From positions 482,608 through 546,607 of the forward strand of contig NZ_SZZM01000001.1 of the NCBI RefSeq assembly GCF_005281615.1: a stretch of DNA of 64,000 bases, given 5' to 3'. Made by a program: the position numbers and the translations under genes. Under the pieces are notes generated by a model. The model did no database searches, was not told where the DNA came from, and was given only the letters and a program-made list of their open reading frames with translations. Position 1 is the stretch's first letter. Each line of letters begins with the position of its first letter. Origin of the DNA: Rhodoligotrophos defluvii. GTDB taxonomy: Bacteria; Pseudomonadota; Alphaproteobacteria; Rhizobiales; Im1. Of the stretch, positions 7,232 to 45,642 are shown one piece after another.

Positions 7232-8674
7232 CTAAACCTCATACCACACCCCACCGCGGCGGATGAAGGAGACCACCACATTGGCGCCGACGGTCTTGTT
7301 GGCGCCGGTCTGGGTGCGCAGGTTGCCGGTCCCGTGCGCGTAGGTGGTGCCGTTCGATGCCTGCAGCCGCACCACCTGTCCGTCGACCCCGTTCAGGAGA
7401 TTGGTCACCGTCGCCGGCGGCGTGAAGTTGAGGGCGGAGACCCCGTCCACATTGATCGAGCCGCCACCAGCGTCAAAGAAGTTGGTCCAGCCGGGCGAGC
7501 CCGCATAGCCGATCGACGTGCCCGCCCCGGTCTTGGTGATGATACGCTGGGCGATGCGCGGGATGGCGGCGCTCTGGTTGGCCGTATAGATGCCGACATA
7601 CTGGTTGCGCTGATGCGCCGGCACGTTGCTTTCGTCATTGATGAAGTGTCGCACCTGGCCGGCCGTGGTGTTGAGGCTCAGGTTGACGAACAGGTTCTGC
7701 GAGCCGGTCACGCGCAGCGCGTCATAGGTGCCGTCCTGCCGGCTCGACAGGGTGATGCCGAAGCTGGCATTGGTGACCTGGTTGCGCTGCCCGGTCACCA
7801 CGAGACCTTCCTTGCCGCAGAGCTCGAAGCGACCATTGGTGATCAGGCCCGCCGTGCCTTGCCATAGGCAGCCCACGTCCGCATTCTCGGCCACGCAATT
7901 GCTCATGCGGCAGTTGGAAACCCCTGTCATGAGGAACGAGGCGATGAGCCCGGAAGGGCTATCGTTCGGCCCGGAATGGCCGGCATGTACATTGTCGAAC
8001 AGGGCATCGGGCCGGTTGTTGTAGATCACGCCGGCATAGTCGACGAGCGGCGCGCCGGCGAAGTCGACGCCGGCCATATAGCCGCGGTTCGCATACACAT
8101 CGCGCAGGAGCAGCACCTGTCCCCCGTCGTTGCGGATTGCCTCGAGGCCGATCCCCCTGAACCCGCAAGCCACCACCGCCGGGAACTTGCAGGCCCCCTC
8201 TATCCAGATGCCGCGCTGGCGCGCCGCCTCATCACCGAGGAAGAACAGGTTGCGGAACACCAGGTTGCGCCGTTCCTCCGCGGTCACCCCGTCATTGGGC
8301 ACATGGATCATGGCGCCGGTGCTGCTCGCAGCGAAGCCGCTCGCGGCCTTCAGCGTCGACACCCGCCGGCTGTTGTCGTAGACGCCGGGATTGACGAGGC
8401 CGGCGGTCAAGACCGGCACGGCGCCGAAGATGTGGGCGCAGGCCTTGTCCACCACCAAGGGTGCGGAGATCAGATAGATCCCCGGCGGCACATAGAGCGG
8501 GTCGCCATTGGCCAGGCACTTGGTGATGGCCTGCTGCAGCCGGTCGGTATCGTCGCTCTCGCCATCACCCTTGGCGCCCCACATCCTTGCATTGGGCACG
8601 CGGGCTGCATCGAACAGGTTGCCCACCACACTGAGGTTCGTCGCACCCTGAAGGACTTGCACGTAAGTGGTCAT
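7232..8674 (-). CDS. Tail spike / tail fibre with pectate-lyase-type beta-helix
   Basis: The 480-residue protein starts with a short head region, then shows the GDGESDDTDRLQQAI signature near residues 35-50, which opens the right-handed beta-helix of pectate-lyase-like phage spikes (PF12708 type). Asn- and Gly-rich repeats follow through about residue 380, and the C-terminal part is a compact beta domain. Such proteins bind, and often degrade, surface polysaccharide, and so define host range. Its start overlaps the stop of the gene before it by four bases (ATGA), so the two are translationally coupled. Confidence 0.82.
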   Translation of the reverse strand: MTTYVQVLQGATNLSVVGNLFDAARVPNARMWGAKGDGESDDTDRLQQAITKCLANGDPLYVPPGIYLISAPLVVDKACAHIFGAVPVLTAGLVNPGVYDNSRRVSTLKAASGFAASSTGAMIHVPNDGVTAEERRNLVFRNLFFLGDEAARQRGIWIEGACKFPAVVACGFRGIGLEAIRNDGGQVLLLRDVYANRGYMAGVDFAGAPLVDYAGVIYNNRPDALFDNVHAGHSGPNDSPSGLIASFLMTGVSNCRMSNCVAENADVGCLWQGTAGLITNGRFELCGKEGLVVTGQRNQVTNASFGITLSSRQDGTYDALRVTGSQNLFVNLSLNTTAGQVRHFINDESNVPAHQRNQYVGIYTANQSAAIPRIAQRIITKTGAGTSIGYAGSPGWTNFFDAGGGSINVDGVSALNFTPPATVTNLLNGVDGQVVRLQASNGTTYAHGTGNLRTQTGANKTVGANVVVSFIRRGGVWYEV

Positions 8675-32970: not shown

Positions 32971-35805
32971 TCAGCCACTATCCTCGTCAGCATCGGCCGG
33001 GTGTGGCGGCTGCGGCGGGCCGGATTCCCTACGTTTCGGCACGTCATGCAACCGCACGTCGAGATAGCGTCGGATCCGCTCGTTGGTCTTTATGAAGCCC
33101 TTCTGCGGCATCACCCGGCCGAAGGTCGCTTCCTTCCACGGCCGCACCGCATTGGCGTGGCACCAGGCCACGAAGGCCTCATACATCTCCCGCGCCGTCA
33201 CCGAGGCATTGGCGCTCTTAGGCACCCGTTCCACGCAATCGGTGGTGAAGCCGCCAACCGGGTCCATCTCCTCGCGATAGGCCAGTGTTGCCGCCAGCAC
33301 CTCGGGCGGCGCGTGCAGGCCCTGCGTCATGTATTTGCGCAAACCCTCGATGAGCCAATTGAGTATGCCCGCGCGTTCCGCCTCGAACTCGGCAAGCACC
33401 TGCTCCATGGGCCGCCGCTCGGCATCGGTGATGGTCACCGTCCACGGGATAAGCCGCAATCGTCGCCAGATGCCATGGTCGACACCGCCCACCTGCGGCA
33501 GGTCGTTGCCCGACATCACCGCCTTGAAGGTCGGATACATGTCGAAGAACCCTTTGTGCAGATGGCGCACCTGGGTGGGCTCGCCGCCGGTCAGCGCCTT
33601 GATCAGCCCTTCGCGCAAGGGCTCGCCGCGCGGCAGCTCGGAGACGCGCACCAGCCGGGCACCGGTGAGGCGCGCCAGCTCGGGCGTGGCCTGGTCGCCC
33701 CGCCGCTGCCCCATGCCGGTCACAGCCTCGGGGTTGAGCGACTGCGCATAGGCGCCCATCAGCCGGCATAGGGCCTCGATGAAGGTGCTCTTGCCATTGG
33801 CCCCGGTGCCATACATGAACACCAGCACCTGCTCGCCGGTGAGCCCGGTGAGGCCGTATCCCGAATAGACCTGCACGAACTCGCGCACCGCCGCATCCGG
33901 CAGGAACCGGTTGAGGAACGCCATCCATCTTGGGCAAGTCGCAGCCCTGTCATAGCGCACCGGCGCCACCTTGGTGATGAGGTCGGCCCGGGCATGCGGC
34001 TTGAGCTCGACCGTCATGTCCCAGCGCGGCTCATCGAGATCCGGTCCTTCCGGATCCTCGACCTTGTGGAACACCAGCGTGCCATTCTGCACGTTGAACC
34101 TCAGCGGGTCCGGGTCGAGGTCTTCCGGCGCCACGGTCTTGTGTGGCAGTGCCTGGCTGATCATGCCCATGATCCGGGAGTTGTTGCCCGAGGAGACCGC
34201 AAACCGCCGCCGCGCAATCTGGCGCTTCTCCACCGCGTCGCGGATCTCGCCGGCCGATCGGACCAGGGCTTGCTCATCCTCGGTCCAGTCCTTCTCGGGC
34301 TTGTCCCGCAGCGGCTTGGCCGCCTCCATCAATCTGCGCTCCGCGGGCGAAGCGCTGATCAGGTCCGCCTCATAGGCGATGCGCTCCGCCACCTCCTGCG
34401 CGCAGCGGGTCACATATTCGTCGCCGCCCTTGACCTCCCAATGGCTCGCAGCCCAGGCATGCCAGCCCACGTCGCGCACCTGCAGCAGGTCTTCGCCGAA
34501 CCATTCGAGTAGCCGCTGGCCATTGCCGGTATCGTTTTGCGGCTGCTCGGCACAACGGCCCAGCTTCTCCGGGTCGAGATCATCGCCATCTCCACCAGGT
34601 GGGCCGCCGTAGCCACCATCGTCTGGCCATGCGCCATCAAACGGGGTTCCGGGGTCGGGATCGTCGTCTGGATCGAACGGCAGAGCCTCATGCCAGTCCG
34701 GCGGCCCTCGGTGCGAGCGCGCCGCGCGCGCGGCGCGGGCCCGGGCCTTGCGTTCGACTTCGGAAAGGTCGCGCGGCGAGGCCATGCCTTCCCGCACCGA
34801 TCGCTCGATATTGGCGTTCACCAGGCGCCAGCCGTCCGCCGCCGGCAGGCCGTTGCGGGCGCAGGCATCCTTCAGCGCGGCAATCACCACCGCGTGCGAA
34901 AGGGCGCCGGCTGCCACCAGCTGCCCCAGCACATAGCCGCATTTGTTCAGGGTGAAGCCGCGCCGGCCCTTCGGGCAGCTGGCCAGTTCCTGTGTCTCGC
35001 GGTCGAGCGCGGCCAGCCCATAGCGGCGCACCGCCTCGTCCGCCTGTGCCTGTGGAGCAGCATCGATCGCCGGCGGCCGGCCATCTCGGGAGCCGCCACG
35101 GGCAAGCCCGTGCGGGGCAAGCCCCTCAGGAGCAAGCCCCTCGGGGGCGAGCCCCCGGGCGAACGCGCCGCGCCGCAACACCAGGTCCAGCAGCCGCGGC
35201 GGGGCTTCGGGGATGGGCGCCCCGTCCGGCTCCTGCTCCCAAGCGTAGGCCGCGCCATCCCCCATCACCGAAGGCGGCACGATCACATAGCCGCCTTCGC
35301 CGCGGATATCCACATGCTCGGCTATGGCAGCGTCGACCTGCGCGAGCTTGCCGAACAGGTTGGCCCGGTTGCCCAGGCGCTCACCGTCCGGCATCTCGGG
35401 ATAGGCAAACCACAGGTGCAGCCCGCCCGATTGCGTGCGCACCACCGGGCACGGCGGCAGCGCGCCCTGGCCGCAGAAAGCGGCCAGCGCGGCCAGCATC
35501 TCGTCCGCGGGAAACTTCCGCGGGTCGAGGTCCACCACGAACAGGCCGGAGCGAATCCCGGTCGGCATGCCGATCAGCGCATGGGGAAAGCGTTGCCACC
35601 AAGCGCGAATCTGCTCCTCGTCGGTCGTGGCAAGATAGAGGCCGCCATCCTTCTTGCCGGGCGAAGACTTCGGCGTCAGCGGCTGCTTGCTTTCGCTTTT
35701 CTTTTGCGAAGGCGAACACGGAAACACCGGCCAGCCCCGGCGCGCATAGTCCAGCGCGGCAACAAGCAAACCGCCGCGGCCCTCACCCCCCGGATGAGTG
35801 GTCAT
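32971..35805 (-). CDS. P4-type primase-helicase (Prim-Pol plus D5/SF3 helicase)
   Basis: The 944-residue protein has an N-terminal bifunctional primase-polymerase domain (ALDYARRGWPVFPC, then FVVDLDPRKFPADE with the metal-binding DLD) and a C-terminal D5-type helicase with Walker A VLVFMYGTGANGKSTFIEAL near residue 645 and FKAVMSGNDLP behind it. A Pro/Gly/Asp-rich linker joins the two. This is the architecture of P4 alpha-like replication initiators, which melt and unwind their own origin. Its start overlaps the small gene before it by four bases. Confidence 0.92.
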   Translation of the reverse strand: MTTHPGGEGRGGLLVAALDYARRGWPVFPCSPSQKKSESKQPLTPKSSPGKKDGGLYLATTDEEQIRAWWQRFPHALIGMPTGIRSGLFVVDLDPRKFPADEMLAALAAFCGQGALPPCPVVRTQSGGLHLWFAYPEMPDGERLGNRANLFGKLAQVDAAIAEHVDIRGEGGYVIVPPSVMGDGAAYAWEQEPDGAPIPEAPPRLLDLVLRRGAFARGLAPEGLAPEGLAPHGLARGGSRDGRPPAIDAAPQAQADEAVRRYGLAALDRETQELASCPKGRRGFTLNKCGYVLGQLVAAGALSHAVVIAALKDACARNGLPAADGWRLVNANIERSVREGMASPRDLSEVERKARARAARAARSHRGPPDWHEALPFDPDDDPDPGTPFDGAWPDDGGYGGPPGGDGDDLDPEKLGRCAEQPQNDTGNGQRLLEWFGEDLLQVRDVGWHAWAASHWEVKGGDEYVTRCAQEVAERIAYEADLISASPAERRLMEAAKPLRDKPEKDWTEDEQALVRSAGEIRDAVEKRQIARRRFAVSSGNNSRIMGMISQALPHKTVAPEDLDPDPLRFNVQNGTLVFHKVEDPEGPDLDEPRWDMTVELKPHARADLITKVAPVRYDRAATCPRWMAFLNRFLPDAAVREFVQVYSGYGLTGLTGEQVLVFMYGTGANGKSTFIEALCRLMGAYAQSLNPEAVTGMGQRRGDQATPELARLTGARLVRVSELPRGEPLREGLIKALTGGEPTQVRHLHKGFFDMYPTFKAVMSGNDLPQVGGVDHGIWRRLRLIPWTVTITDAERRPMEQVLAEFEAERAGILNWLIEGLRKYMTQGLHAPPEVLAATLAYREEMDPVGGFTTDCVERVPKSANASVTAREMYEAFVAWCHANAVRPWKEATFGRVMPQKGFIKTNERIRRYLDVRLHDVPKRRESGPPQPPHPADADEDSG

Positions 35806-36023
35806 AGCCCCTCCAGCCGCTTCTGTTTGGGCAGCGCTTCAGGCGCAGAGCGCGAGCCCCGCTCCTCCGCCTCCCGCGCCTGCCGCGCTTCAAGTTCCTT
35901 CCAGTGCTCCCAGCAGTACCAACGGCCCCGCTTGCCACGGAGGCCAGACCAGCCGATGCCGATGCACGTGTGCTCCGTGCAGCCCGGCACCTCGCATGGG
36001 AATGGCGGGTAATAGTCCGTCAT
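35802..36023 (-). CDS. Small zinc-binding-type phage protein, 73 aa
   Basis: Contains CEVPGC, then EHTC and WYCWEHW within the first 45 residues, so it could hold one zinc ion, followed by a charged helix. It overlaps both neighbours by four bases (ATGA), so it is coupled between the methylase and primase genes. Such small Cys-rich proteins are common next to phage primases. Function unknown. Confidence 0.7.
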   Translation of the reverse strand: MTDYYPPFPCEVPGCTEHTCIGIGWSGLRGKRGRWYCWEHWKELEARQAREAEERGSRSAPEALPKQKRLEGL

Positions 36024-36820
36024 GCCCGTCGCTCCGTGCCGAGTATCGAAAGCTGTTCAGCCTTCCGAGGCGGCTCCACGAACATGTCAGGCTGGGCATA
36101 GGCCTGCTCAATGCGTTTGCAGGCGATGTCGAAGTACGTAGGCTCGATCTCAATGCCGATGAACTTGCGGCCGAGCTTGGCGCAGGCAACACCAGTGGTT
36201 CCAGAGCCCATGAACGGATCGAGGATTGTGTTGCCACGCTCAGAGAATAGATGAATGAGCTCACGAATGAGAGAGACGGGCTTCTCTGTCGGATGAGCAC
36301 CGTGCCGGCTGGGACCGTTAGTCCTGTGAGTGAATAAGCCCCGCCTGCCCCCGCCACTCCAAACACTAAAGCTTCGGCCGCACCAGAAAACCCCAATGCA
36401 CTCAAAGGCGGTCGCCGGCTTCTGCCCGTTAAACTGCGGCGCGCAATCAGGCTTTATCCACAGGCAAACGCTTTTGCTCTTGCCACCTGCGTTAAGAACC
36501 GCCTCACGCCATCTCGGAAGCGCGAAAATATCGCTAAACGCAAGGAACCAACCAGAGCATGACTTGCAAATGAGTTGGGCTGTTCGCTCCTGAATATCTT
36601 CAATTGAAGAGAAGCTAAGTGCATGCAGGTTTGGTCCCCCATCCCGGCGGAGGTCGTTTCCCCGCCGGCCTCTGTTTTGGTGGACAATCTCCGAGTAGGG
36701 CGGGTCCGTTATCGTGTGATCCACCGTGCGCAGCGTCGGCATGACCTCAAGGCAGTCCCCCAGGTACAGCACGCAATCGCCGATCACTTCCTTGCGCCGG
36801 TAGCAGCTGGGCTCAGCCAT
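36020..36820 (-). CDS. DNA methyltransferase, beta-class N6-adenine/N4-cytosine type
   Basis: In the 266-residue protein the catalytic motif DPPYS (near residue 40) comes before the SAM-binding motif DPFMGSGTTGVAC (near residue 205), which is the beta-class order shared with CcrM. It begins with YLGDCLEVMPTL, typical of this group. No restriction gene is near, so it is a solitary methylase, used for modification or regulation. The target sequence cannot be read off. It sits two genes from a GcrA-like regulator, whose known relative reads CcrM methylation. Confidence 0.92.
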   Translation of the reverse strand: MAEPSCYRRKEVIGDCVLYLGDCLEVMPTLRTVDHTITDPPYSEIVHQNRGRRGNDLRRDGGPNLHALSFSSIEDIQERTAQLICKSCSGWFLAFSDIFALPRWREAVLNAGGKSKSVCLWIKPDCAPQFNGQKPATAFECIGVFWCGRSFSVWSGGGRRGLFTHRTNGPSRHGAHPTEKPVSLIRELIHLFSERGNTILDPFMGSGTTGVACAKLGRKFIGIEIEPTYFDIACKRIEQAYAQPDMFVEPPRKAEQLSILGTERRA

Positions 36821-37032
36821 CAGGCTAGCGCCTCCGCCATGATCTTGATGGCCGAAATCAGCTCATGCCGGGTCAGCGGCACCCGCACCGTCGTGCGGCC
36901 CGTGGCGACCACCATCACCAGGTCCGCCGTGCTTTCCCGCGCGCTCGCCTTCGGTGCATCGAAATAGGCGAGATGCCCGATGCGAGGCTCTGACGGATCA
37001 GCGGGTTTGCGCGGGGTCACCTGCAGCATCAT
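36820..37032 (-). CDS. Small hypothetical protein between GcrA-like and methylase genes, 70 aa
   Basis: Starts at tandem ATGs (37032/37029) behind GGAGGG. The protein is small and mixed (IGHLAYFDAPKAS, TTVRVPLTRHELISAIKIMAEAL), possibly a beta-alpha fold. Its stop overlaps the methylase start (TGATG), and its start overlaps the GcrA-like stop. No family recognised; coupling suggests a partner of the methylase or regulator. Confidence 0.6.
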   Translation of the reverse strand: MMLQVTPRKPADPSEPRIGHLAYFDAPKASARESTADLVMVVATGRTTVRVPLTRHELISAIKIMAEALA

Positions 37033-37655
37033 GCAGCCCTCCGCAGCTTGGCGGGCCGAGCCACTGGTGGCCGAGCCACGCGTGGCTGCACCGGCACATA
37101 GGCGTGGGCGCAATGCTCAGGGCAATACGATCGCCCGTCCTGCGCCGCCTCTCCACAGAACACATGCCCGCGCCCATCCCGGCCGATCGGCCACTTGCAG
37201 GCGTCGGGTTGCAGCTCGAGAAGGCTCACCCCACCCGCCACGGAAGCGGGCGGGGTGAGAAGTTCGGCCGCGTCCTGGGAGGTAGGAGACGCGACCGTCG
37301 GGTGGCTAGCCACAGAAACAATCCGGATCTTGCGCGACCTTGGCCGCGAGCGGCTTGGCGTGGCGTTCTGGAAGTGGACACCCAGCGCCAGCGCGATGTT
37401 CCGCAGCTTGCGCGGGCGCAGGCCCAGGAGCGCGGCGGCTGCCTCGCAGGTGAGCTGGTCGGCCGCCATGGCGCGGATGCGGTCGTTTCGCTCGACCCGT
37501 GCCAGATCCCTCGGCTTGACGAGCCCAAGCTCGCGGATGCGCCGCGAAACCATCTCGAGGCTGGTGCGAAAGTGCTGTCGCATCAGCTTGAGGCTCAGGC
37601 CCTCCGCCACCAGCCGCCGCAGCAGGTCATCATCGATTGGGTTGCGCTCCCGCAT
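37029..37655 (-). CDS. GcrA-like cell-cycle transcription regulator
   Basis: The 208-residue protein starts at 37655 behind GAGG. N-terminal HTH-like helices (DDDLLRRLVAEGLSLKLMRQHF) lead to an Arg-rich linker and a C-terminal zinc-type domain with CKWPIG, VFCGE, and YCPEHCAHAY. That C-terminal block is the hallmark of GcrA, which binds sigma70 and is guided by CcrM-methylated GANTC sites in Caulobacter and relatives. A phage copy could redirect host RNA polymerase to methylated promoters. The N-terminus is divergent from host GcrA. Confidence 0.8.
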   Translation of the reverse strand: MRERNPIDDDLLRRLVAEGLSLKLMRQHFRTSLEMVSRRIRELGLVKPRDLARVERNDRIRAMAADQLTCEAAAALLGLRPRKLRNIALALGVHFQNATPSRSRPRSRKIRIVSVASHPTVASPTSQDAAELLTPPASVAGGVSLLELQPDACKWPIGRDGRGHVFCGEAAQDGRSYCPEHCAHAYVPVQPRVARPPVARPAKLRRAA

Positions 37656-37662
37656 GGCGCCC

Positions 37663-38169
37663 TCAATCACAACCGCGGCCACGAGTGGCGCCGCCATCAT
37701 CCGGATTGGTGAACACGCGCCAGTGCCGCCAGCCTCGCGGGCACCAATAACCCCAGGAGCGCACCACCGGCCCGGTGAGGAACAGAGACCAGCACGGCAC
37801 CGGCGCGCCATCGATCTTGTCCAGCGCGATGCGATGCGCCGACTCAGGCCGCCGCACCACAATCGAGCCAGCCGTGCGATAGCGCACCAGCACCGGCCCG
37901 GTGGGGTTGCTGGCCACGACCGGCATGATCTCGTGATAAGCTCCGTCCAGCAGGATCGAGCAGTTCACCCACGGGTGGTCATGCAAGGCGCGGTCATCGT
38001 CATCGCGCAGGAACTGGTGGAGATAGACGTTGAGCCAGCGATTGCGCGGGATGATCCACCAGCGCCTGAGATAGGGCCGCTCGGCACCGCCGATGATCAC
38101 ATCGGGCTTGCGCTGCTGAATGCGCGCGATCAGCCGCCAGCCGAACGCGCGAATGGCTCTGCGCATCAT
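37663..38169 (-). CDS. Cupin-like phage protein with LHDHPW motif
   Basis: The 168-residue protein contains YLHQFLRDDDDRALHDHPW near residues 50-68, then ESAHRI later: His residues placed like the metal site of cupins. Trp-rich at the end (SWGYWCPRGWRHWR). Such LHDHPW proteins are common in phages of Proteobacteria, but their substrate is not known. It overlaps the CII-like stop (TGATG) and precedes the GcrA-like gene by seven bases. Confidence 0.75.
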   Translation of the reverse strand: MMRRAIRAFGWRLIARIQQRKPDVIIGGAERPYLRRWWIIPRNRWLNVYLHQFLRDDDDRALHDHPWVNCSILLDGAYHEIMPVVASNPTGPVLVRYRTAGSIVVRRPESAHRIALDKIDGAPVPCWSLFLTGPVVRSWGYWCPRGWRHWRVFTNPDDGGATRGRGCD

Positions 38170-38651
38170 CAAGCGCCCTCCCCCCTGGCAACCGCCATGG
38201 CGAGTCCGTAAAGCGCCGCCGTCGCTTTGATGGCTTCCTCGATTTCGGGCAGCATCTTGGCGGCCTCACGCGGCGAAACCCGCTGCCCGCTTTCGCCCTT
38301 CGGATCGAGCGCCATGGCGCAGCCGCGCATCACATCGGCATGGGCGGCAGCCGTTTGCGCGGTGGCGCTGGCCAACGCGTCGCAGAAATCCGCCTTGGGC
38401 AGCAGCCAGAACGCTCCCCCGACGCGCAGTGCCAAGTGCTCAACCGCAGCAGTCGCGCCGAAATGCTCTGTAATCTGGGCCACCACCGCGAATGGCGGCC
38501 CATCCGTCTGGTCAGGGTCCGTCCACTTATAGACGGTTGAAGGCGAACGGCCGGTGAAGTCCGAGACCCGCTCGACGCCCCCGCTCTGCTCGATCATTCG
38601 AACAACAGCCGCGAAAGGCGAGCCAGCCTTACGCGGCCGCACCGGGCTCAT
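38169..38651 (-). CDS. CII-like phage regulator with HTH
   Basis: The 160-residue protein begins with a short helix, then an HTH near residues 20-45 (GGVERVSDFTGRSPSTVYKWTDPDQ), the pattern of CII/regulatory proteins that read the phage early promoters. A helical C-terminus with FCDALASATAQTAAAHADVM follows, for oligomerisation. GGGAGGT lies at seven bases. The start overlaps the Cro-like stop by four bases. It is the second gene of the leftward early operon, the place of cII-type regulators. Confidence 0.78.
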   Translation of the reverse strand: MSPVRPRKAGSPFAAVVRMIEQSGGVERVSDFTGRSPSTVYKWTDPDQTDGPPFAVVAQITEHFGATAAVEHLALRVGGAFWLLPKADFCDALASATAQTAAAHADVMRGCAMALDPKGESGQRVSPREAAKMLPEIEEAIKATAALYGLAMAVARGEGA

Positions 38652-38983
38652 GGTAAAACCTCCCGCTCATTACCAGTGAACTGGCAGGCGGTCTGGAGTA
38701 GCGTCTCCTGTGCATCGCGGTCACAACCCGCCATGCAGTCCTCACGGCCCGCGCCCGCCCCCATAACGGCGCGGGCCACCTGCGCGGATTTGACGACATG
38801 CATGCTTAGGCGAGTCGCCATGAATGCATTGACGCGCTCAGCGGTGGCGAGGGTCACGGTCCTGCCCCGTTCCAAGCGGGACACCAGCTCGGAATTCCCG
38901 CAAGCTGCTTTACCGAAATAGGATTTCCCCATGCCGGTGCGTTGCAGGAAGTCTTGAATGTTAGAAAGGAGATGCGACGACAT
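38648..38983 (-). CDS. Cro-like HTH repressor
   Basis: The 111-residue protein has an HTH (TGMGKSYFGKAACGNSELVSRLERGRTVTLATAERV) in the first half. It is the first gene of the leftward early operon, divergent from the CI-like gene across an 88-bp operator region. Promoter elements TTGACG (39019-39014) and TAAACG (38996-38991) precede it on the minus strand with a 17-bp spacer that contains the operator. A longer in-frame start at 39019 would cover those sites. Confidence 0.82.
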   Translation of the reverse strand: MSSHLLSNIQDFLQRTGMGKSYFGKAACGNSELVSRLERGRTVTLATAERVNAFMATRLSMHVVKSAQVARAVMGAGAGREDCMAGCDRDAQETLLQTACQFTGNEREVLP

Positions 38984-38990
38984 GGCAGAA

Positions 38991-39070
38991 CGTTTATCCG
39001 CAATAGCGGAGAACGTCAATAGCCGCTATCAAGGACGTGCACTGGTCCCCGCATTAACCGATATTGCGGG
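38991..39070. promoter_or_regulatory. Lysis-lysogeny operator region
   Basis: Palindrome O1, TCCGCAATAGCGGA (38997-39010), fills the spacer between the -35 and -10 of the leftward promoter. O2, ACCGATATTGCGGG (39057-39070), matches the same site at 11 of 14 and ends one base before the CI-like ATG at 39072, so that gene is probably self-regulated and leaderless. O1 recurs exactly, in reverse orientation, at 40196-40209. Confidence 0.7.
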
Positions 39071-39071
39071 C

Positions 39072-39380
39072 ATGGAGACGGGATGGCGGGACCGGCTTGA
39101 GGAAGCTCTCAGGCGTGCTGGACGATCAAAGCGAAGCGTGTCTCTGGCTGCAGGGTGCGGACCGGGATACCTTCACGATGTCTTGAATGCGGGAAAAGAA
39201 CCGACAATAGACCGCCTTCTGCGTATAGCGGATGTTATTGGTGTAAGTGTTTCTTGGATTATATACGGTATTGAGCTCGACAAATCTGGCGAGGAGCTCC
39301 TTAGGTTGTATTCAGGGATGTCTGCGAAGCAGAGGAAAGCTTTTCTTGATCTGGCGCGCTCGACTGCTGAGACAGAATGA
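39072..39380 (+). CDS. Short CI-like repressor, HTH only
   Basis: From the ATG at 39072 the protein has about 102 residues: an XRE-type HTH (RAGRSKRSVSLAAGCGPGYLHDVL) and a short helical C-terminus. There is no LexA-like peptidase domain, so RecA-driven self-cleavage is not expected and induction must work another way. An in-frame start at 38982 would extend it over the operators and overlap Cro's start, so I reject that. It should bind the TCCGCAATAGCGGA-type sites. Confidence 0.78.
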   Translation: METGWRDRLEEALRRAGRSKRSVSLAAGCGPGYLHDVLNAGKEPTIDRLLRIADVIGVSVSWIIYGIELDKSGEELLRLYSGMSAKQRKAFLDLARSTAETE

Positions 39381-39770
39381 AGCCATCTTTAATGATTGAA
39401 AGTAGAATCTTCTTCTGGGCAATAGACAGTTTATCTGTTGCTTGCTTGAAAGTGCGAGCGTGTTCATCGATAGTCATTTGTCCGCGCGACATAATCCGCC
39501 CCCGGGGATCAGATCAAGCGATTCCGAACCGATATCGCTGTTGATCGGCAGCCGGCTATCAAGTTGACCGCTTCGTGTGGCCCAAGCGCACTACTGCCCG
39601 GCAGCTAAACAAGCCACCCGCGAATGTGGGATTTGGGAATGGACAGGAGTGGATAGAGCTAATCCGCACACTGTCGACGAAACATTTCTTAGTATCCATC
39701 CCTGGCGTGCCCCCGCTTCCGATGTGACAACTAAGTTACGCCAGTGCCGTTCACGCTCAAAGCGGAAAGA

Positions 39771-39787
39771 TGTCAGCCACACTGACA
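39771..39787 (+). promoter_or_regulatory. Inverted repeat over the start of the second XRE regulator
   Basis: TGTCAG (39771-39776) and CTGACA (39782-39787) are perfect inverted arms, five bases apart; the last base is the A of the ATG at 39787. This looks like an autoregulatory operator for the HTH gene that follows. Confidence 0.5.
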
Positions 39788-40116
39788 TGGCTCATCCAAC
39801 CTACATTAGGGAATGGCGTGAATTCCGCGGTCTAAAGCAGCAAACCGTCGCGGAGATCACCGGACTTTCCCGTTCAACCATTTCCATGATGGAGACCGGC
39901 AAAGTCGGCTACACCCAGCACAGCCTAGAAGCTATTGCTCGCGCACTCCACACCGAGCCCGGCTACCTTCTCCTCCACGACCCCAGAGCAGATCGACCAT
40001 TTTGGAAGCGATGGCTTGAGCTGTCGGCCGAACAGCGGGACCAACTCGCTAGCTCGGCCCGACGGCACATTTTGCGATTAGCCGTCAAGGCACCGAGGCC
40101 GAACCGTCCGCTATAG
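39787..40116 (+). CDS. XRE-family HTH regulator
   Basis: From the ATG at 39787 the 109-residue protein is a clear XRE HTH: IREWREFRGLKQQTVAEITGLSRSTISMMETGK in the first 50 residues. A helical tail ends in ILRLAVKAPRPNRP. A palindrome overlaps its start. It lies between the CI-like gene and the rightward early promoter, so it may be an antirepressor, a second repressor or a modulator of that promoter; sequence does not decide. A 290-bp stretch before it (39493-39786) has no gene I support. Confidence 0.82.
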   Translation: MAHPTYIREWREFRGLKQQTVAEITGLSRSTISMMETGKVGYTQHSLEAIARALHTEPGYLLLHDPRADRPFWKRWLELSAEQRDQLASSARRHILRLAVKAPRPNRPL

Positions 40117-40163
40117 CGCGGGCAGGGCCATTGCCCTTCATGCATCTGGACGCCCCAAGCGTA

Positions 40164-40215
40164 TCCGCAATTGCAAATATTCTCTATTGTCATACTCCGC
40201 TATTGCGGATATTGT
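40164..40215 (+). promoter_or_regulatory. Rightward early promoter with repressor operators
   Basis: TTGTCA (40187-40192) and TATTGT (40210-40215) are spaced 17 bp, and the spacer contains TCCGCTATTGCGGA (40196-40209), the exact reverse complement of O1. A weaker copy, TCCGCAATTGCAAA, lies at 40164-40177. The geometry copies that of the Cro promoter, so one repressor should shut both operons. Confidence 0.68.
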
Positions 40216-40250
40216 CCGCCCATGCTCGCCATCCTTTGGGGATAGTCGCC

Positions 40251-40775
40251 ATGCAGCTCGGCATCACCGTTCGCGACCGCGTCACGGCGCGCGCCACTGA
40301 CCACGCCTACGGGCTGAGCCCCGCGCCCGAGCCGGCGGTTCGCATCTGCCGCCTGAGGCGGTTGGCGCGGGCAGTCATCGGAATTTGGCGCAGATGCCGG
40401 CGCGCGTTGCTGGAACCGTCACCCGATCCCTTCGAGGTCACGTGCGCCTTGCTCAGCGCCGCCAAGCCGGGCGACCTGGTGCACCTGCCGAGAGGCATCT
40501 GGGTTGAGAGATTAGATCAAGATGACGCGGAGCAAGCCGCATCCGGCCAAGCAGCCTCCAATCAGGTCGAGGACGAGCCCGGTGCGGCGCTGCTTACGCG
40601 AACGGCCGTGCACCCGCAAGACCGGCTCCCCAAAACTGGACAGGATCGCTACACGATAAGGATGATTGATGAATTCGCCAATACCGGCAAGGATCATCCC
40701 CAGCCCAATAAGGAAAATGCTCTCATTCCCCACAGTAATGGCGGGAACAACGATGGCGGCTCCGGCAGCCATTAG
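40251..40775 (+). CDS. Hypothetical protein of the rightward early region
   Basis: The first ~85 residues (RDRVTARATDHAYGLSPAPEPAVRICRLRRLARAV) are related to the product of 41513-41857 and look real; GGGGA lies upstream of the ATG. The last ~90 residues overlap a membrane-protein gene on the other strand and are low-complexity, so the true protein may have ended earlier before the neighbour was acquired. It is the first gene behind the operator-containing promoter. Function unknown. Confidence 0.5.
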   Translation: MQLGITVRDRVTARATDHAYGLSPAPEPAVRICRLRRLARAVIGIWRRCRRALLEPSPDPFEVTCALLSAAKPGDLVHLPRGIWVERLDQDDAEQAASGQAASNQVEDEPGAALLTRTAVHPQDRLPKTGQDRYTIRMIDEFANTGKDHPQPNKENALIPHSNGGNNDGGSGSH

Positions 40776-40838
40776 GGCGGTATACCATGCCGTGTATTTC
40801 CCAATTGCCTGGGCTATGCCGGCCCCGTGATCACCCAT
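40512..40838 (-). CDS. Small membrane protein, three to four helices
   Basis: The 108-residue protein starts at 40838 with AAGGAG six bases upstream. Hydrophobic segments are at residues 14-36 (WYTALMAAGAAIVVPAITVG), 38-52 (IFLIGLGMILAGIG) and near the C-terminus (LVLDLIGGCLAGCGLLRVILI). Orientation opposes the early operon. In similar phages such genes are exclusion or lysogenic membrane proteins, but I know no close family. A perfect inverted repeat lies 36 bp upstream. Confidence 0.7.
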   Translation of the reverse strand: MGDHGAGIAQAIGKYTAWYTALMAAGAAIVVPAITVGNESIFLIGLGMILAGIGEFINHPYRVAILSSFGEPVLRVHGRSRKQRRTGLVLDLIGGCLAGCGLLRVILI

Positions 40839-40873
40839 TGGGCTCTCCTTTGCTGTTTCCAAAGGGGGGTTCA

Positions 40874-40907
40874 GGACCACCCCGCGTGCCTTCGCGCGGG
40901 GTGGTCC
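40874..40907. repeat. Perfect 13-bp inverted repeat
   Basis: GGACCACCCCGCG (40874-40886) pairs fully with CGCGGGGTGGTCC (40895-40907) around an 8-base loop. No T run follows. It lies upstream of the membrane gene starting at 40838 and downstream of the leftward gene ending at 41077, so it may end or insulate transcription there. Confidence 0.6.
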
Positions 40908-40956
40908 AAAGTCCAGTCAAGCAAAGCGCATCATAATACAGTCGGAGCAGGAACCC

Positions 40957-41090
40957 ATGCATGTCATCCCGGGGTTATCCGCCGTTGAATCCCTTGCGCA
41001 GTCAGATGTGCGCACCACGATGCCTCATCATGAGAGCGGCCCGGCTCGGATTGAGCCCACGCAGCCGCAGGCCGGATCAATTCCCGTGGT
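40957..41090 (+). pseudogene. Degraded 5' copy of the 41513 gene
   Basis: Bases 40974-41018 match 41530-41574 at 40 of 45 positions and encode the same SAVE/DxLAQSDVRTT stretch. After about 25 codons similarity fades and the region runs into a gene on the other strand. It seems to be a duplicated gene start whose remainder was replaced. The surrounding 200-bp gap holds only this and the hairpin. Confidence 0.5.
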
Positions 41091-41379
41091 CGGCGTCGAT
41101 GATCCGTTGCTTGGCTTCCTGCGTAATCTCGCGAACCATCTGGGCAGCTGCGACCTGAACGGAGACGGTCTCCCGTTTGCCTTCACCTGCCAGGGCGCCG
41201 AACTGCTTCAGGCTGTCGACAACGCGAAGCTCGATGTCGGTGACCAGCTGGCGGGCTCCCCTGGCGTCGTAGCGGCTGAGGGCCACGGCCATGTCCTTGA
41301 AGGCCTCGCCAAGGATTTTCGCCGCGAGCTGAGCAGCGATGCTCTGCATCTCTACCGGGCTTATTGGCTTTTCTGCCAC
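41077..41379 (-). CDS. Helical protein of unknown function, 100 aa
   Basis: Starts at a GTG (41379) behind GGGGAGG. The sequence is almost wholly helical and charged (IAAQLAAKILGEAFKDMAVALSRYDARGARQLVTDIELRVVDSL), suggesting a coiled or bundled protein. It opposes the rightward early genes and separates the degraded copy from the intact gene at 41513. No family recognised. Confidence 0.62.
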   Translation of the reverse strand: MAEKPISPVEMQSIAAQLAAKILGEAFKDMAVALSRYDARGARQLVTDIELRVVDSLKQFGALAGEGKRETVSVQVAAAQMVREITQEAKQRIIDADHGN

Positions 41380-41512
41380 CAGCGAAACCTCCCCATTTTG
41401 ATCTCTGCCGTGCTGTTTGCGACGGAAACCGGAGCGGCGCCGCGCACCGCCAACGCGGCGAGCCCAACATGAGTCAAGAAGACCTTAGTCTTACTATTCA
41501 GGAGGGGGACAA

Positions 41513-41857
41513 GTGAGCCTCATCTTTCAGTTATCCGCAGTAGACTTGCTTGCGCAGTCAGATGTGCGCACCACCGCATGCCATTGGGAGGCAGCCCGCG
41601 CTTATGATCGCGCCCATGGCCTGAGCCACGCGCCGAAGTCCGCGGCCCGCATCGGTCGCGTCACCATCCGCGAGACTGCGCTGCTCAACCTGATGGCCGC
41701 GGTGATCGTCGAGGCTGCCGTGAAGCGGGGCCGCGTCACTCAGCACGATTTCGATCAGGCCGGCATCACCGAGCAAGTCGCCAAGCGATATCGCGATAGC
41801 GCCTATGCCCGCGCCATGGCCATGGAGCCGCGCCTGCCCGCCATGCTGGAGGCGTGA
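41513..41857 (+). CDS. Hypothetical phage protein, 114 aa
   Basis: GTG start behind GGAGGGGG. The N-terminal 45 residues are shared with two other sites in the prophage (40251 and 40957): AQSDVRTT, then RAHGLSHAPKSAARIGRV. The C-terminal part is helical (LLNLMAAVIVEAAVKRGRVTQHDFDQAGI). It opens the rightward run of coupled genes that ends in integrase; the next gene overlaps it by four bases. Function unknown. Confidence 0.68.
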   Translation: MSLIFQLSAVDLLAQSDVRTTACHWEAARAYDRAHGLSHAPKSAARIGRVTIRETALLNLMAAVIVEAAVKRGRVTQHDFDQAGITEQVAKRYRDSAYARAMAMEPRLPAMLEA

Positions 41858-42045
41858 ACCCGGCCATGAACACGGTCACGACCTGGCTCACCCCGTGGTT
41901 TTCGATCTCGGTGGACTATGGCTGGCAATCCGTGGGCTTGGGGTTCACCGTCTACCACTGGCCGCAAGACCCGCCTCAGCTCGCCTTGCATCTCGGTCCG
42001 CTCGAGATCTGGTTCAATCTTGGCCCTCGGAGCCGCGAGCCATGA
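41854..42045 (+). CDS. Small hypothetical phage protein, 63 aa
   Basis: Trp- and Pro-rich (WLTPWFSISVDYGWQ, HWPQDPPQLALHLGPLEIWFNLGP), beta-like. Its GTG overlaps the previous stop; an ATG four codons later is also possible. The next gene's ATG overlaps its stop. Coupling on both sides supports a real gene. No family recognised. Confidence 0.6.
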   Translation: MNPAMNTVTTWLTPWFSISVDYGWQSVGLGFTVYHWPQDPPQLALHLGPLEIWFNLGPRSREP

Positions 42046-42347
42046 GCCAGGGCGCACGGATCATCAGCTTTGCCGGCGCCCGCGCCGCGCGCGGCTTACC
42101 ACCAGTGGAAAAGCGCGCGGCGATCCAAGCGCCACGCAAATGGCGCGTAGGAGACGAGTGCCTTGTGCCGCGGCTTGACGGCCAAGGCTACGCTCCTGCC
42201 GTGATCACCGTCATTGACCGCACAATCTATGGCGGCCGGGCGATCGTCTGCCCCCTGCGCGGCTATGGCGCCGCGCTCAACTCGCAGCCGTTCGACGCAC
42301 TGCGGCCGCGTCCAGGGCGAGACCAGCGAAACACCAGAACGAGGTAA
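42042..42347 (+). CDS. Hypothetical protein, 101 aa, SH3-like
   Basis: The central part reads [45 protein letters not shown], the rhythm of a small SH3/Tudor-like barrel that could bind nucleic acid or protein. Basic tail. It starts inside the previous stop (ATGA) and precedes the GapR-like gene by four bases, so it may work with it. Confidence 0.62.
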
Positions 42348-42351
42348 CGCC

Positions 42352-42978
42352 ATGTCCATCGGTTCCACCGCGCAAAAGCAGCTACGCTCCTATGTCGAGC
42401 GCATCGAACGTCTGGAAGAGGAAAAGCAGGCCGCAGCCGGCGACATCAAGGAAGTCTACGCCGAGGCTAAGGCCATGGGCTTCAATGCCAAGATCCTCCG
42501 TAAGGTGGTGGCGCTGCGCAGAAAGGATCCCCGTGAACGCGAGGAGGAAGAGACGATCCTCGACCTCTACATGGGCGCCCTCGGCATGCTGCCGCTGTTC
42601 GAGGCGGCCGAGCAGCGCGACATGGAAATGCGGGAAAGCTTCACCCCGTCGGGGCCCCTGCTGATCGAGCATGATCCGGAAGAGCCCATCGTCGGCAGCC
42701 GCGAAATCAAGCTGCTCGAATACAAGCCGATCAACGAGCCCGAGGCGGCCGTGAGCTCCGCCGAGGAAAAGCCGAAGCGGAAGCCCGCCAGACGCAAGGC
42801 GAAGGCGAAGGACAGGGCGGCGGCGAGCAAGCAGCCAGGTCGTAGCAAGCGCACGGCATCACGCGCCCGCAAGCCCAAGATCGACGCGAAATCACCGGCC
42901 GATCTGCCCGAGCGCAGCGGCACCGCCGATTACCGCCGGCACGACGATTCCGGCATGGGAGCACCGGCCGATGCTTAA
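42352..42978 (+). CDS. GapR-like nucleoid protein (DUF2312) with extra Lys/Arg-rich tail
   Basis: Residues 8-95 carry the GapR core: [59 protein letters not shown]. GapR in Caulobacter clamps overtwisted DNA ahead of forks and RNA polymerase and helps topoisomerases. Host GapR is about 90 residues; this one has 208, with a linker and a tail rich in Lys, Arg, Ala and Pro ([14 protein letters not shown]), like histone tails. The tail probably adds DNA binding. GAGGT lies at seven bases. Confidence 0.85.
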
Positions 42979-43162: not shown

Positions 43163-43461
43163 TGGCAAAGACCTATAGCCTCGATCCCGAGCACGTCTTG
43201 CAGGATTGCGATGCCACGGTAATCGGCAGCGGCCAGAATATTCTTGTCGGCTACGAATACGACCGCGACTCGATCATCATCGTCATAAAGGCCACACCAG
43301 ACGATTGCCTCCGAGCTCAGCCGTCCTCAAACGGTCGATCGCGGATACTCGCCAGCACGAGAGGCTTCATCCCCCTGGATGTCGAGCGCCGGGGCGTCGA
43401 GGGATTCGAATACATTCGCGGGGCGAAGCTCAGCCTCAACCTCATCCTACCCAAACGCTGA
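43162..43461 (+). CDS. Hypothetical protein, 99 aa
   Basis: Beta-rich, acidic first half ([21 protein letters not shown]) and a mixed second half. No family recognised. It overlaps the preceding stop and ends seven bases before SSB, so it belongs to the same transcript. It could be a replication accessory, by context only. Confidence 0.58.
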
Positions 43462-43468
43462 GGATCAC

Positions 43469-43984
43469 ATGGCTGGATCACTCAACAAGGTCACGCTGAT
43501 CGGCCGCTTGGGCAGGGATCCCGAAATTCGCCACACCAGGGATGGCCGTCCGGTTGCTTCCTTCAGCCTCGCCACGTCGGAACACTGGCGCGACAAAGCC
43601 ACCGGCGAGCGGAAGGAACGCACCGAATGGCACAATGTGGTGGTGTTCTCGGAAGCCCTGGCCAAGGTGGCGGAGCAGTACCTCCGCAAGGGATCGCTGA
43701 TCTATGTGGAAGGCCAGCTGCAAACGCGCAAATGGCAGCACCAGGACGGCAGCGACCGCTACTCAACCGAGGTGGTGCTGCAGGGTTTCAATGCCGCCAT
43801 CACCATGCTGGACAAGCGGGACGACGGCGGCCGTTATGACCCGGCCACCCGCGGCATGGACCCCGGCCGCGCCGCCGGCACGAGCACGAGCGCAGTCGAC
43901 CGCGCCTTCGCCGCCCAAGCACCGGCCCGCCGGGCTCACGCACCGGGCGCCTTGGCCGACCTTGATGATGAGATCCCGTTCTAA
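43469..43984 (+). CDS. ssb: Single-stranded DNA-binding protein
   Basis: The 171-residue protein has the SSB OB fold: [19 protein letters not shown], then [37 protein letters not shown] flexible Ala/Arg-rich linker follows, ending in the acidic tip DDEIPF, through which SSB recruits repair and replication enzymes. GAGG lies six bases upstream. A phage copy protects single strands during its own replication and can stand in for host SSB. Confidence 0.96.
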
Positions 43985-43998
43985 CTGGAGTTCACGCC

Positions 43999-44295
43999 AT
44001 GGCTCTCCGGTACCGCATCGACCCCGCTGATATTCACCCGGAAAAGGCAGCGCGCCGGCTGGGCCTGACATTGCCGGAGTTTGAGACGCAGCTGCCAAGG
44101 CTGCTGTCCCGCGGCTTCCCGGCACCGGATATGGACACCGGCATGTACGATCTCGAGGCGATTGATCGTTGGCGGCGCCGACGTCATCCGCACCTGTTTC
44201 CCGAGCAGGCGAGCGTCTTGACAGCTCAACCTGTTGCTCGCGATGCTGCCGACGTTGTCGGCGGGCGCATCGCGAGGCTCAGAGCACGTGGGTAA
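43999..44295 (+). CDS. Excisionase/AlpA-like DNA-binding protein
   Basis: A 98-residue basic protein with winged-helix-like sequence (AARRLGLTLPEFETQLPRLLSRGFPAPDMDTGMYDLEAIDRWRRRRH), the pattern of Xis/AlpA proteins: an HTH, a proline-containing wing and an Ile-x-x-Trp end. It directly precedes integrase and overlaps its start, as excisionases usually do. It should bend att DNA and direct excision. Confidence 0.72.
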   Translation: MALRYRIDPADIHPEKAARRLGLTLPEFETQLPRLLSRGFPAPDMDTGMYDLEAIDRWRRRRHPHLFPEQASVLTAQPVARDAADVVGGRIARLRARG

Positions 44296-45490
44296 GGTGA
44301 AGATCCCTTATTACGTGGTGGTGAAGGGTCGTGGCTACTGGCGGCCGACGGCTCGAATGCGCTCGCTTGGGTTTACGATTGTGCGATGCGGGGCCGACGG
44401 CCCGGCCGCCTGGGCGATCGCAGCCCAGTGGAATCAGCGTTGGCAAGCTGCCCGCCGTGGCCTCGCAGGTTCTCTGGTCGCAACCGCGGCCGAGAACCCA
44501 TCCTCGGAAGAGGCAGAGGAAAAGGCAATCTACCCGGCCGAATCCTTAGGCGATGCCTTTCGACGCTACCGACGCACAAATGAGTGGCGGCTGAAAAAAC
44601 CGAGAACCCGGGAAGATTGGTGGCGTGGTTGGAGGCGGATCAGGCTGGTATTCGGTGATGTGGATCCACGCAGCGTCAAGATGGAGGATATCAGTGCCTG
44701 GCGAGCGGCGATCGAAGAGACTGTATCACTGCGGGAGGCGCACCGCGCTCTGAAGATCTGGCGCGCGCTGTGGAAGGTGGCCGCGGCGATGAAGTATTGC
44801 GAGCGAGACGAGGATCCGTCGCTCGTTGTACGCAACAGAGCTGAAAGGGGCCGCTCCGCCACCTGGACCGAAGGCGAGGTCGTTCGCCTTGTAAAACAGG
44901 CTTGGCGAGAGGGATACCGCGGTTTGGCAGCAGCTATGGCCGTGATGTGGGACACGCAGTTCTCTCCGGGAGACGTCAGATCGCTCACGGCCGGCCAAAT
45001 CGCCTGTCGGGAGGTCGGCGGTATCTTTTTCACCGAGCGCGGCAAGACAGGCGCGTCGGTTGGCGGAATTCTATCGAAGCGGTCCGCCAAACTACTGGAT
45101 GCCTATGTGAAGACGTTGGGCTTCGCGTTGCACGATGACGCGCCAGTGTTCCGGACCCGCGGATTGACGGCTGTTGGTGCTGGCGGCGGCCGTCCCCGTC
45201 CACCTTCGCCGTACACAAAAGACCGATTTGCCGCCGATTTCAGAGTGATTCGATCATTGACTTTCGGGGAAGGTGAAGACAGGCAGCTCCTGGACTTTCG
45301 TCGTTCCGGAGCTGTCGAAGCGATTGCCGGCGGCGCCGAAGCGGAGCAGTTGTCGCGCGCCATGGGTAACAGCCTGTCGGCTTCCAACAGCCTCTTCGAG
45401 ACTTACGTGCCCGTGAAGCACGGCATTGTTCGGGAGGTGACCCAAGCCAGGAAGAAAGGTCGGCGAAAACTTCGCTCCGAGAACGAATAA
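44288..45490 (+). CDS. int: Tyrosine recombinase integrase, divergent active site
   Basis: About 400 residues from the GTG at 44288 (other starts lie at 44234 and 44243). An N-terminal arm-binding and core-binding region (DAFRRYRRTNEWRLKKPRTREDWWRGW) precedes the catalytic domain. There the first box reads MWDTQFSPGDVRSL, the Arg box reads LLDFRRSGAVE without the usual His, and the nucleophile Tyr lies in FETYVPV. This matches a subgroup seen in alphaproteobacterial phages. It ends 48 bp from the att repeat, as integrases of tRNA-sited elements do. Confidence 0.9.
   Translation: MGKVKIPYYVVVKGRGYWRPTARMRSLGFTIVRCGADGPAAWAIAAQWNQRWQAARRGLAGSLVATAAENPSSEEAEEKAIYPAESLGDAFRRYRRTNEWRLKKPRTREDWWRGWRRIRLVFGDVDPRSVKMEDISAWRAAIEETVSLREAHRALKIWRALWKVAAAMKYCERDEDPSLVVRNRAERGRSATWTEGEVVRLVKQAWREGYRGLAAAMAVMWDTQFSPGDVRSLTAGQIACREVGGIFFTERGKTGASVGGILSKRSAKLLDAYVKTLGFALHDDAPVFRTRGLTAVGAGGGRPRPPSPYTKDRFAADFRVIRSLTFGEGEDRQLLDFRRSGAVEAIAGGAEAEQLSRAMGNSLSASNSLFETYVPVKHGIVREVTQARKKGRRKLRSENE

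Positions 45491-45538: not shown

Positions 45539-45642
<104 letters not shown>

Follow-up and report, generated by a model that had tools for sequence, protein, structure and literature searches.

Why would a temperate phage carry a GcrA-like protein, a DNA methyltransferase (MTase) resembling CcrM and a GapR-like protein in a host whose own GcrA, CcrM and GapR are encoded elsewhere in the genome? The question is posed by a prophage of Rhodoligotrophos defluvii that lies within the window, the stretch of 64,000 nucleotides analysed here (positions 482608-546607 of contig C1; genome size, 5.49 Mb). An earlier note on this DNA had proposed a module with which the phage writes, reads and packages DNA to steer S-phase-linked transcription. 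Our analyses lead to a different emphasis: we see in the trio a loosely assembled kit that recurs among phages and is tied to their replication modules. In the explanation that we rank first, and to which we give about an even chance, the prophage holds the replication-and-transcription kit of a temperate phage, with the genes for the GcrA-like protein and the MTase in a string running from a CII-like activator to a primase, and the GapR gene accompanied by that for a single-strand DNA-binding protein (SSB) in a divergent group.

Results

Identity of the three proteins

The three genes lie where the earlier note had placed them, and the products of all three exceed the Pfam cut-offs of their families. 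For the GcrA-like protein, whose failure in a family search had been named beforehand as a refuting outcome, the match to PF07750 scores 51 bits against a cut-off of 26.9 (hmmscan, longer 277-aa frame; 51.2 bits in the genome search). This match is confined to the C-terminal part (profile positions 66-150 and 55-150), as are the phmmer matches to the GcrA structures 7ye1 and 5yix. An AlphaFold2 model based on 26 related sequences (mean predicted local distance difference test, pLDDT, 81.3; predicted TM score, pTM, 0.41) has a helix-turn-helix (HTH) at about residues 9-43, a second HTH at about 48-91, a low-confidence linker at about 95-140 and a sigma-interacting domain (SID) at about 141-190. 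The top three Foldseek matches of this model are GcrA chains (E 0.0044 to 0.026), and 5yix, a structure of the SID, aligns with it over 49 columns at a target TM score (TMt) of 0.80 and 41% identity. The SID of GcrA is thus recovered by PF07750, phmmer and Foldseek alike.

The DNA-reading half is altered. The second HTH aligns with the DNA-binding domain of host GcrA (hhalign 90.4%, E 1.4e-6); the first was considered as a duplicated GcrA domain and not accepted (hhalign 5.8%). By hand alignment to the recognition helix TRNAVIGKVHR, identical residues number 0 of 11 in the window copy and, in the prophages of two genomes of the same genus, 0 of 11 (G055) and 7 of 11 (G004). The window protein therefore lacks an N-terminal DNA-binding domain with a TRNAVIGK-type helix, and it scores 42.7 bits for the NCBIfam GcrA equivalog (cut-off 280). 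The claim of the earlier note that the GcrA-like protein reads GANTC is weakened accordingly for this copy: judged by its sequence, the protein probably no longer needs methylated GANTC, or recognises it differently, and it looks retargeted. Both HTH segments are also present in the relatives. In other phage GcrAs, such as those of viral loci L015, L227 and L256, second HTH-like segments were not significant by profile, the best independent E value being 0.14, in L015. As a single query, the window protein (P0004) found no relative in phage records or IMG/VR, where canonical GcrA queries gave matches. A mixed alignment of phage GcrAs contained no stretch conserved enough for scanning and was replaced by one that includes host GcrAs (A6). 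The occurrence of the recognition motif in 69 of 71 GcrA proteins was not used as evidence, since the scan pattern itself included the motif.

The MTase gene (36020-36820, minus strand) is an open frame of 266 aa that scores 100.4 bits for Pfam N6_N4_Mtase (cut-off 26.7) and is assigned to PHROG 67. Its description as a beta-class MTase of the CcrM order is borne out by the order of motifs and by the fold, for which the best Foldseek match is CcrM (6pbd; query TM score, TMq, 0.68), followed by M1.HpyAVI; the mean pLDDT of the model is only 70.9, with low confidence across much of the target-recognition region. The C-terminal domain of CcrM is absent, and the NCBIfam CcrM equivalog score is 76.2 bits against a cut-off of 830, a value that host CcrM, at 622.5 bits, likewise fails to reach. 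Relatives occur in 1759 phage records (E 1e-5), the nearest from isolates being those of Rhizobium and Sinorhizobium phages (50-51% identity), and an IMG/VR contig carries one at 69%; the best PADLOC matches are type II and orphan MTases. In a further viral locus (L013, 9423-10717), a GcrA gene and a beta-class MTase gene overlap by one base (stop/start) and likely form a translationally coupled pair.

What might the window MTase methylate? The sole hint at GANTC is by analogy, in that the corresponding slot of G055 and G004 is occupied by an unrelated ORF that is 68% identical to p027 of phage phiLM21, an enzyme reported as GANTC-specific in PMC5537653, which cites the original paper in J. 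Virol. Enrichment of GANTC in the prophage was considered and rejected: the site occurs 58 times in 44.6 kb, against 153 expected from base composition, and the flanking host DNA is similarly poor in it (19 in 18.4 kb, against 59 expected).

The GapR-like protein matches PF10073 over its whole length (105.9 bits, profile positions 1-72 of 72) and hence contains a full-length DNA-binding domain. In NCBIfam it lies above the cut-off of subfamily PRK13694 (110.4 against 94) and below that of the Caulobacter GapR equivalog (100.9 against 140). As the earlier note had remarked, it bears a long Lys/Arg/Ala tail that the host form lacks: host GapR has 88 aa, whereas the phage copy contains 128 residues beyond residue 80, including a 40-residue stretch that is 45% Lys+Arg. 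C-terminal extensions of at least 40 aa occur in 34 of 133 distinct GapR ORFs of the fetched viral loci, the most basic 40-residue stretch among these 34 being 35% Lys+Arg. GapR is common in phages: a host GapR query found matches in 154 of 50,697 phage records.

Other arrangements of GapR were seen in passing. Phage GapRs of L103, L104, L135, L144, L147, L153 and other loci carry an N-terminal extension of about 80 to 110 aa and lie directly before SSB and primase genes. In L376 (4428-4933), the ORF overlapping GapR has 76 aa and matches GcrA in its sigma-interacting part only, without the DNA-binding domain. A third GapR of the R. defluvii genome (G000:C4:20725-20934, L099; 121-aa frame) has neighbours that by eye look phage-like and resemble helicases and polymerases, and this locus on contig C4 is perhaps a second mobile element.

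Organization of the prophage

The prophage spans about 44.6 kb, is bounded by a 78-bp direct repeat with one mismatch and is inserted at a tRNA-Asp gene. Its structural genes (terminase, portal, protease, capsid and tail) are on the minus strand. The features relevant here are as follows.

1022-1099 (about), no strand: attachment (att) repeat, left copy, a partial tRNA-Asp; one mismatch against 45539-45616, with divergence beyond
32971-35805, minus: primase/D5-type helicase (Prim-Pol, D5_N), last gene of the string that holds the GcrA-like and MTase genes
35802-36023, minus: small ORF of 73 aa between MTase and primase; homologs in G055 and G004
36020-36820, minus: beta-class DNA MTase, 266 aa; DPPY precedes FMGSGTT; without the CcrM C-terminal domain
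36820-37032, minus: small ORF (ATG at 37032; longer ORF listing 36820-37113) whose ends overlap the stop of the GcrA-like gene and the start of the MTase gene; homolog in G004
37029-37655, minus: GcrA-like protein, 208 aa (ATG frame 37655-37029)
37663-38172, minus: protein matching PHROG 4786 ('cysteine dioxygenase'), between the CII-like and GcrA-like genes
38169-38651, minus: CII-like activator (PF06892, PHROG 101), upstream end of the string
39577-40116, plus: repressor-type HTH protein
42352-42978, plus: GapR-like protein, 208 aa; domain at 7-78, then the long tail with its Lys/Arg-rich stretch
43379-43984, plus: SSB, 0.4 kb downstream of GapR
44234-45490, plus: integrase (PHROG 1) next to the tRNA-Asp att site
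45539-45616 (about), no strand: att repeat, right copy, extending into the intact tRNA-Asp gene (45566-45642, minus)

On the minus strand, the order of transcription is CII-like activator, PHROG 4786 protein, GcrA-like protein, small ORF, MTase, 73-aa ORF and primase, the PHROG 4786 gene (37663-38172) standing directly upstream of the GcrA-like gene. Neighbouring genes overlap throughout this string, except for one 7-base gap, which suggests that they are co-transcribed as one message. The layout appears similar to the divergent early operons of lambda-like phages. The prophages of G055 and G004 contain CII-like, GcrA-like, MTase, small ORF and primase genes in the order seen in the window, with the p027-type ORF in the MTase slot.

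Recurrence in viral loci

We surveyed five sets of IMG/VR loci with local profiles, anchored on GcrA, p027-type MTases, GapR, beta-class MTases and primase (54 to 80 loci each). Four sets were limited to the 80 best relatives, out of 267, 422, 292 and at least 545 that were confirmed; the beta-MTase set consists of all 54 relatives from one query. GcrA was present in 16/80 GapR loci and 14/80 p027 loci, compared with 2/54 beta-MTase and 3/80 primase loci (Fisher P 0.0025 to 0.016 in four contrasts), counts that include doubtful ORFs such as L388, a long minus-strand frame. GapR was present in 33/80 p027, 7/80 GcrA and 1/54 beta-MTase loci (p027 versus beta-MTase sets, P 3e-8; GcrA versus beta-MTase sets, P 0.14).

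Adjacency was evaluated assuming uniform placement within the fetched flanks, with neither phylogeny nor operons modelled in the P values. When loci were clustered by their anchor protein, only 1 cluster remained in the GapR set and 3 in the p027 set; the tests were therefore re-run clustered by the partner, except for p027-SSB. GcrA lies closer to GapR or p027-type MTases than under uniform placement in three of four tests. When the GapR set is clustered by partner, GapR and GcrA are no more than 1 kb apart, and always on the same strand, in 8 of 14 clusters (3.0 expected, P 0.0036). For p027-type MTases and GcrA, this distance is found in 5 of 9 clusters when the p027 set is used (1.8 expected, P 0.018) and in 4 of 4 when the GcrA set is used (0.8 expected, P 0.0015). 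Tests of GapR with beta-class MTases (5/10, P 0.09) and of GapR with SSB in the GapR set (3/5, P 0.06) were not significant.

The GcrA, p027 and GapR sets together comprise 240 loci, and all three families were found side by side on 14 distinct contigs among them (15 loci, L269 and L285 being the same), in about eight lineages as grouped by eye from the sequences; none of 134 control loci had all three (beta-MTase 0/54; primase 0/80, the latter being longer). Weak members are counted among the 14, namely the GapR of L239 (9e-5), the GcrAs of L292 and L295 (matched in the DNA-binding part alone) and the distant beta-MTases of L399, L401, L425 and L438. The clearest case is L269, in which GcrA, a p027-type MTase, GapR and a 345-aa ORF lie inside 3.3 kb; GcrA and GapR are confirmed by Pfam, and the MTase shares 70% identity with p027. 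Its genes are, in order:

5989-6483: GcrA
next: HNH-like ORF (by eye)
7255-7977: p027-type MTase
7910-8197: GapR
next: 345-aa ORF

In L262, GcrA is followed by an ORF judged by eye to be helicase-like, then by a beta-MTase sharing 44% identity with the window enzyme, another MTase and GapR.

GapR is further associated with replication genes. Among the 80 primase-anchored viral loci, 21 contain GapR and 19 of these also SSB; in 17 loci, no more than 1 kb separates GapR from SSB and both genes share a strand. Two of these 17 are overlapping ORF calls, and the 17 form 4, 6 or 10 GapR clusters at 60, 70 or 80% identity. Of 10 loci obtained by scanning genome contigs for primase, only Sphingomonas L103 and L104 are tabulated. 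In many phages GapR is found next to SSB and primase genes and no GcrA is detected. This association points to phage replication rather than to the host's S phase.

Occurrence in individual phages

Among 48 records searched whole (15 phage, 33 IMG/VR), none combined GcrA, GapR and PF01555. The Brevundimonas jumbo phages Gurke, Domovoi, Papperlapapp and Kikimora match GcrA in its DNA-binding part only; they also have GapR and a distant p027-like MTase (about 30 bits; 'DNA methylase' in Gurke), the three genes lying far apart. Ochrobactrum phage OC has GapR and a PF01555 MTase without a GcrA match. In Agrobacterium phage Atu_ph08 (MF403009, L448), GapR (1027-1422), annotated as hypothetical, directly precedes GcrA (1426-2013), followed by one ORF and then a C5 methylase; the paper on this phage names GcrA (gp5), and the word GapR is absent from its main text (PMC6630229). 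GapR was not found in phiCbK or Rogue.

That the parts are known singly in phages, as the earlier note held, agrees with the accessible portions of the literature, which report GcrA (PMC3556154), GANTC MTases (PMC5537653; PMC7139368, for phage OC) and GapR (PMC12185513). The last source, in the part available, describes its GapR as the first in a phage genome; DUF2312 (GapR-type) annotations exist in other phage records, such as PBC5. Five GcrA ORFs and one UPF0335 ORF are listed for phiLM21-like prophages, and the available sections of PMC12429752 draw no link between them. A description of GcrA, MTase and GapR together in one phage was not found in the open-licence literature, as judged by titles, abstracts and selected passages, most subscription papers lying outside the search.

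Discussion

Domain identity, gene order, gene overlaps and the recurrence of the trio and of some of its pairs are seen directly in sequence or fold. We propose the following model for the replication-and-transcription kit. The C-terminal domain of the GcrA-like protein would bind region 2 of host sigma-70, with its two HTHs selecting promoters. The MTase would mark newly copied phage DNA, probably at adenine, and it is conceivable that this mark is functionally linked to the GcrA-like reader. GapR and SSB, expressed from the divergent group, may bind overtwisted duplex and single strands around the phage forks.

Several observations weigh against this model. The idea of a module, raised in the earlier note, stands insofar as the trio recurs in other phages, but the trio is not one unit here: the GcrA-like and MTase genes are on the minus strand, and GapR belongs to the divergent plus-strand group, where it precedes SSB by 0.4 kb. 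The 60-kb stretches examined in G055 and G004 gave no GapR counterpart at 1e-8. The recognition region of the window MTase is unlike that of the GcrA-adjacent MTase in L013. Foldseek gave no match below E 0.001 for the GcrA-like model among 798, the best GcrA match being at 0.0044. In the survey, GapR occurs in 21/80 primase loci, which are longer, as well as in the p027 set, and adjacency was not above expectation for beta-MTase and GcrA (4/12 clusters, 2.7 expected, P 0.26), for GapR and p027-type MTases (3/15, 3.2 expected, P 0.64; 2/5, P 0.28) or for GapR and GcrA in the GcrA-anchored set (1/6, 1.3 expected, P 0.78).

Could the three genes be independent passengers from the shared gene pool of alphaproteobacterial phages? 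The MTase would then serve in anti-restriction, the GcrA-like protein would be an activator indifferent to methylation, and GapR would be a replication accessory. The abundance of MTase relatives, the PADLOC matches, the lost recognition helix, the many phages with GapR beside SSB and primase and no detected GcrA, and the null adjacency tests are all consistent with this view. Against independence stand the excess of GcrA in GapR and p027 loci over the control sets and the tight same-strand adjacency in three tests, and we consider it unlikely, if not greatly so.

Beyond the replication-and-transcription kit itself, we speculate that alphaproteobacterial phages share a write-read-clamp kit of interchangeable parts, combined in varying pairs within the replication module: GapR, a sigma-70 cofactor of the GcrA type and an MTase that may come from either of two or more unrelated families. 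Phage promoters would fire as phage DNA is copied and re-methylated, and the window reader, having gained a second HTH and a changed recognition helix, would have been retargeted off the host GcrA code. This extension is distinctly doubtful.

The model of the earlier note appears improbable; in it, the trio would write and read GANTC on the host chromosome, package that chromosome and so steer the S-phase programme of the host. The SID is kept, a p027-type MTase occupies the syntenic slot of two relatives, and a host-replication role was proposed for the GcrA of phiCbK by Gill et al. in the part available of PMC3556154. The host, however, already possesses GcrA, CcrM and GapR, the recognition helix is lost in the window copy, the genes adjoin those for phage primase and SSB, and a GANTC target of the window MTase is not readable from its sequence. 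Very improbable is a decoy, in which the SID would shut out host GcrA by taking up sigma-70 region 2, and the altered HTHs would keep the polymerase off methylated host promoters: the kept SID, the lost recognition helix and the SID-only ORF of L376 would fit, but two confidently modelled HTHs, both present in relatives, argue for DNA binding.

What is the relevance of such a kit? If it works as a unit, it would constitute a phage version of the CcrM-GcrA epigenetic circuit that is bound to phage replication rather than to the host cycle, and would show how phages use the methylation state of their DNA to time gene expression. The recurrence of the same three proteins near one another in some other viruses of related bacteria hints at a shared timing of viral expression and DNA copying. 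Natural GcrA variants that keep the sigma-binding half and alter DNA reading would be useful for separating both functions, and the gene slot that a phage methylase occupies is suggested as a predictor of its target where the enzyme is unstudied.

How does the kit compare with known systems? Caulobacter GcrA (PDB 7ye1, 5yix) consists of a DNA-binding domain (1-45), a linker (46-107) and a sigma-interacting domain (108-173), according to the part available of PMC7403470. The window protein shares this domain order and the C-terminal SID, and differs in its additional N-terminal HTH, not clearly related, and in the recognition helix. GcrA is phage-borne in phiCbK (gp222), the Brevundimonas jumbo phages and Atu_ph08 (gp5), as it is in the window prophage; unlike the window protein, phiCbK GcrA matches nearly the whole Pfam profile including the DNA-binding part, and its gene is not adjacent to the 'putative DNA methylase' gene of that phage. 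The p027 MTase of phiLM21 lies within a replication module, as does the window MTase, which is a beta-class enzyme with DPPY and not homologous to p027 by the searches made. With GapR (UPF0335; PDB 6cfy, 6ozz), the phage copy has the full DNA-binding domain in common, to which, in comparison with the host protein, it adds a long tail with a Lys/Arg-rich stretch.

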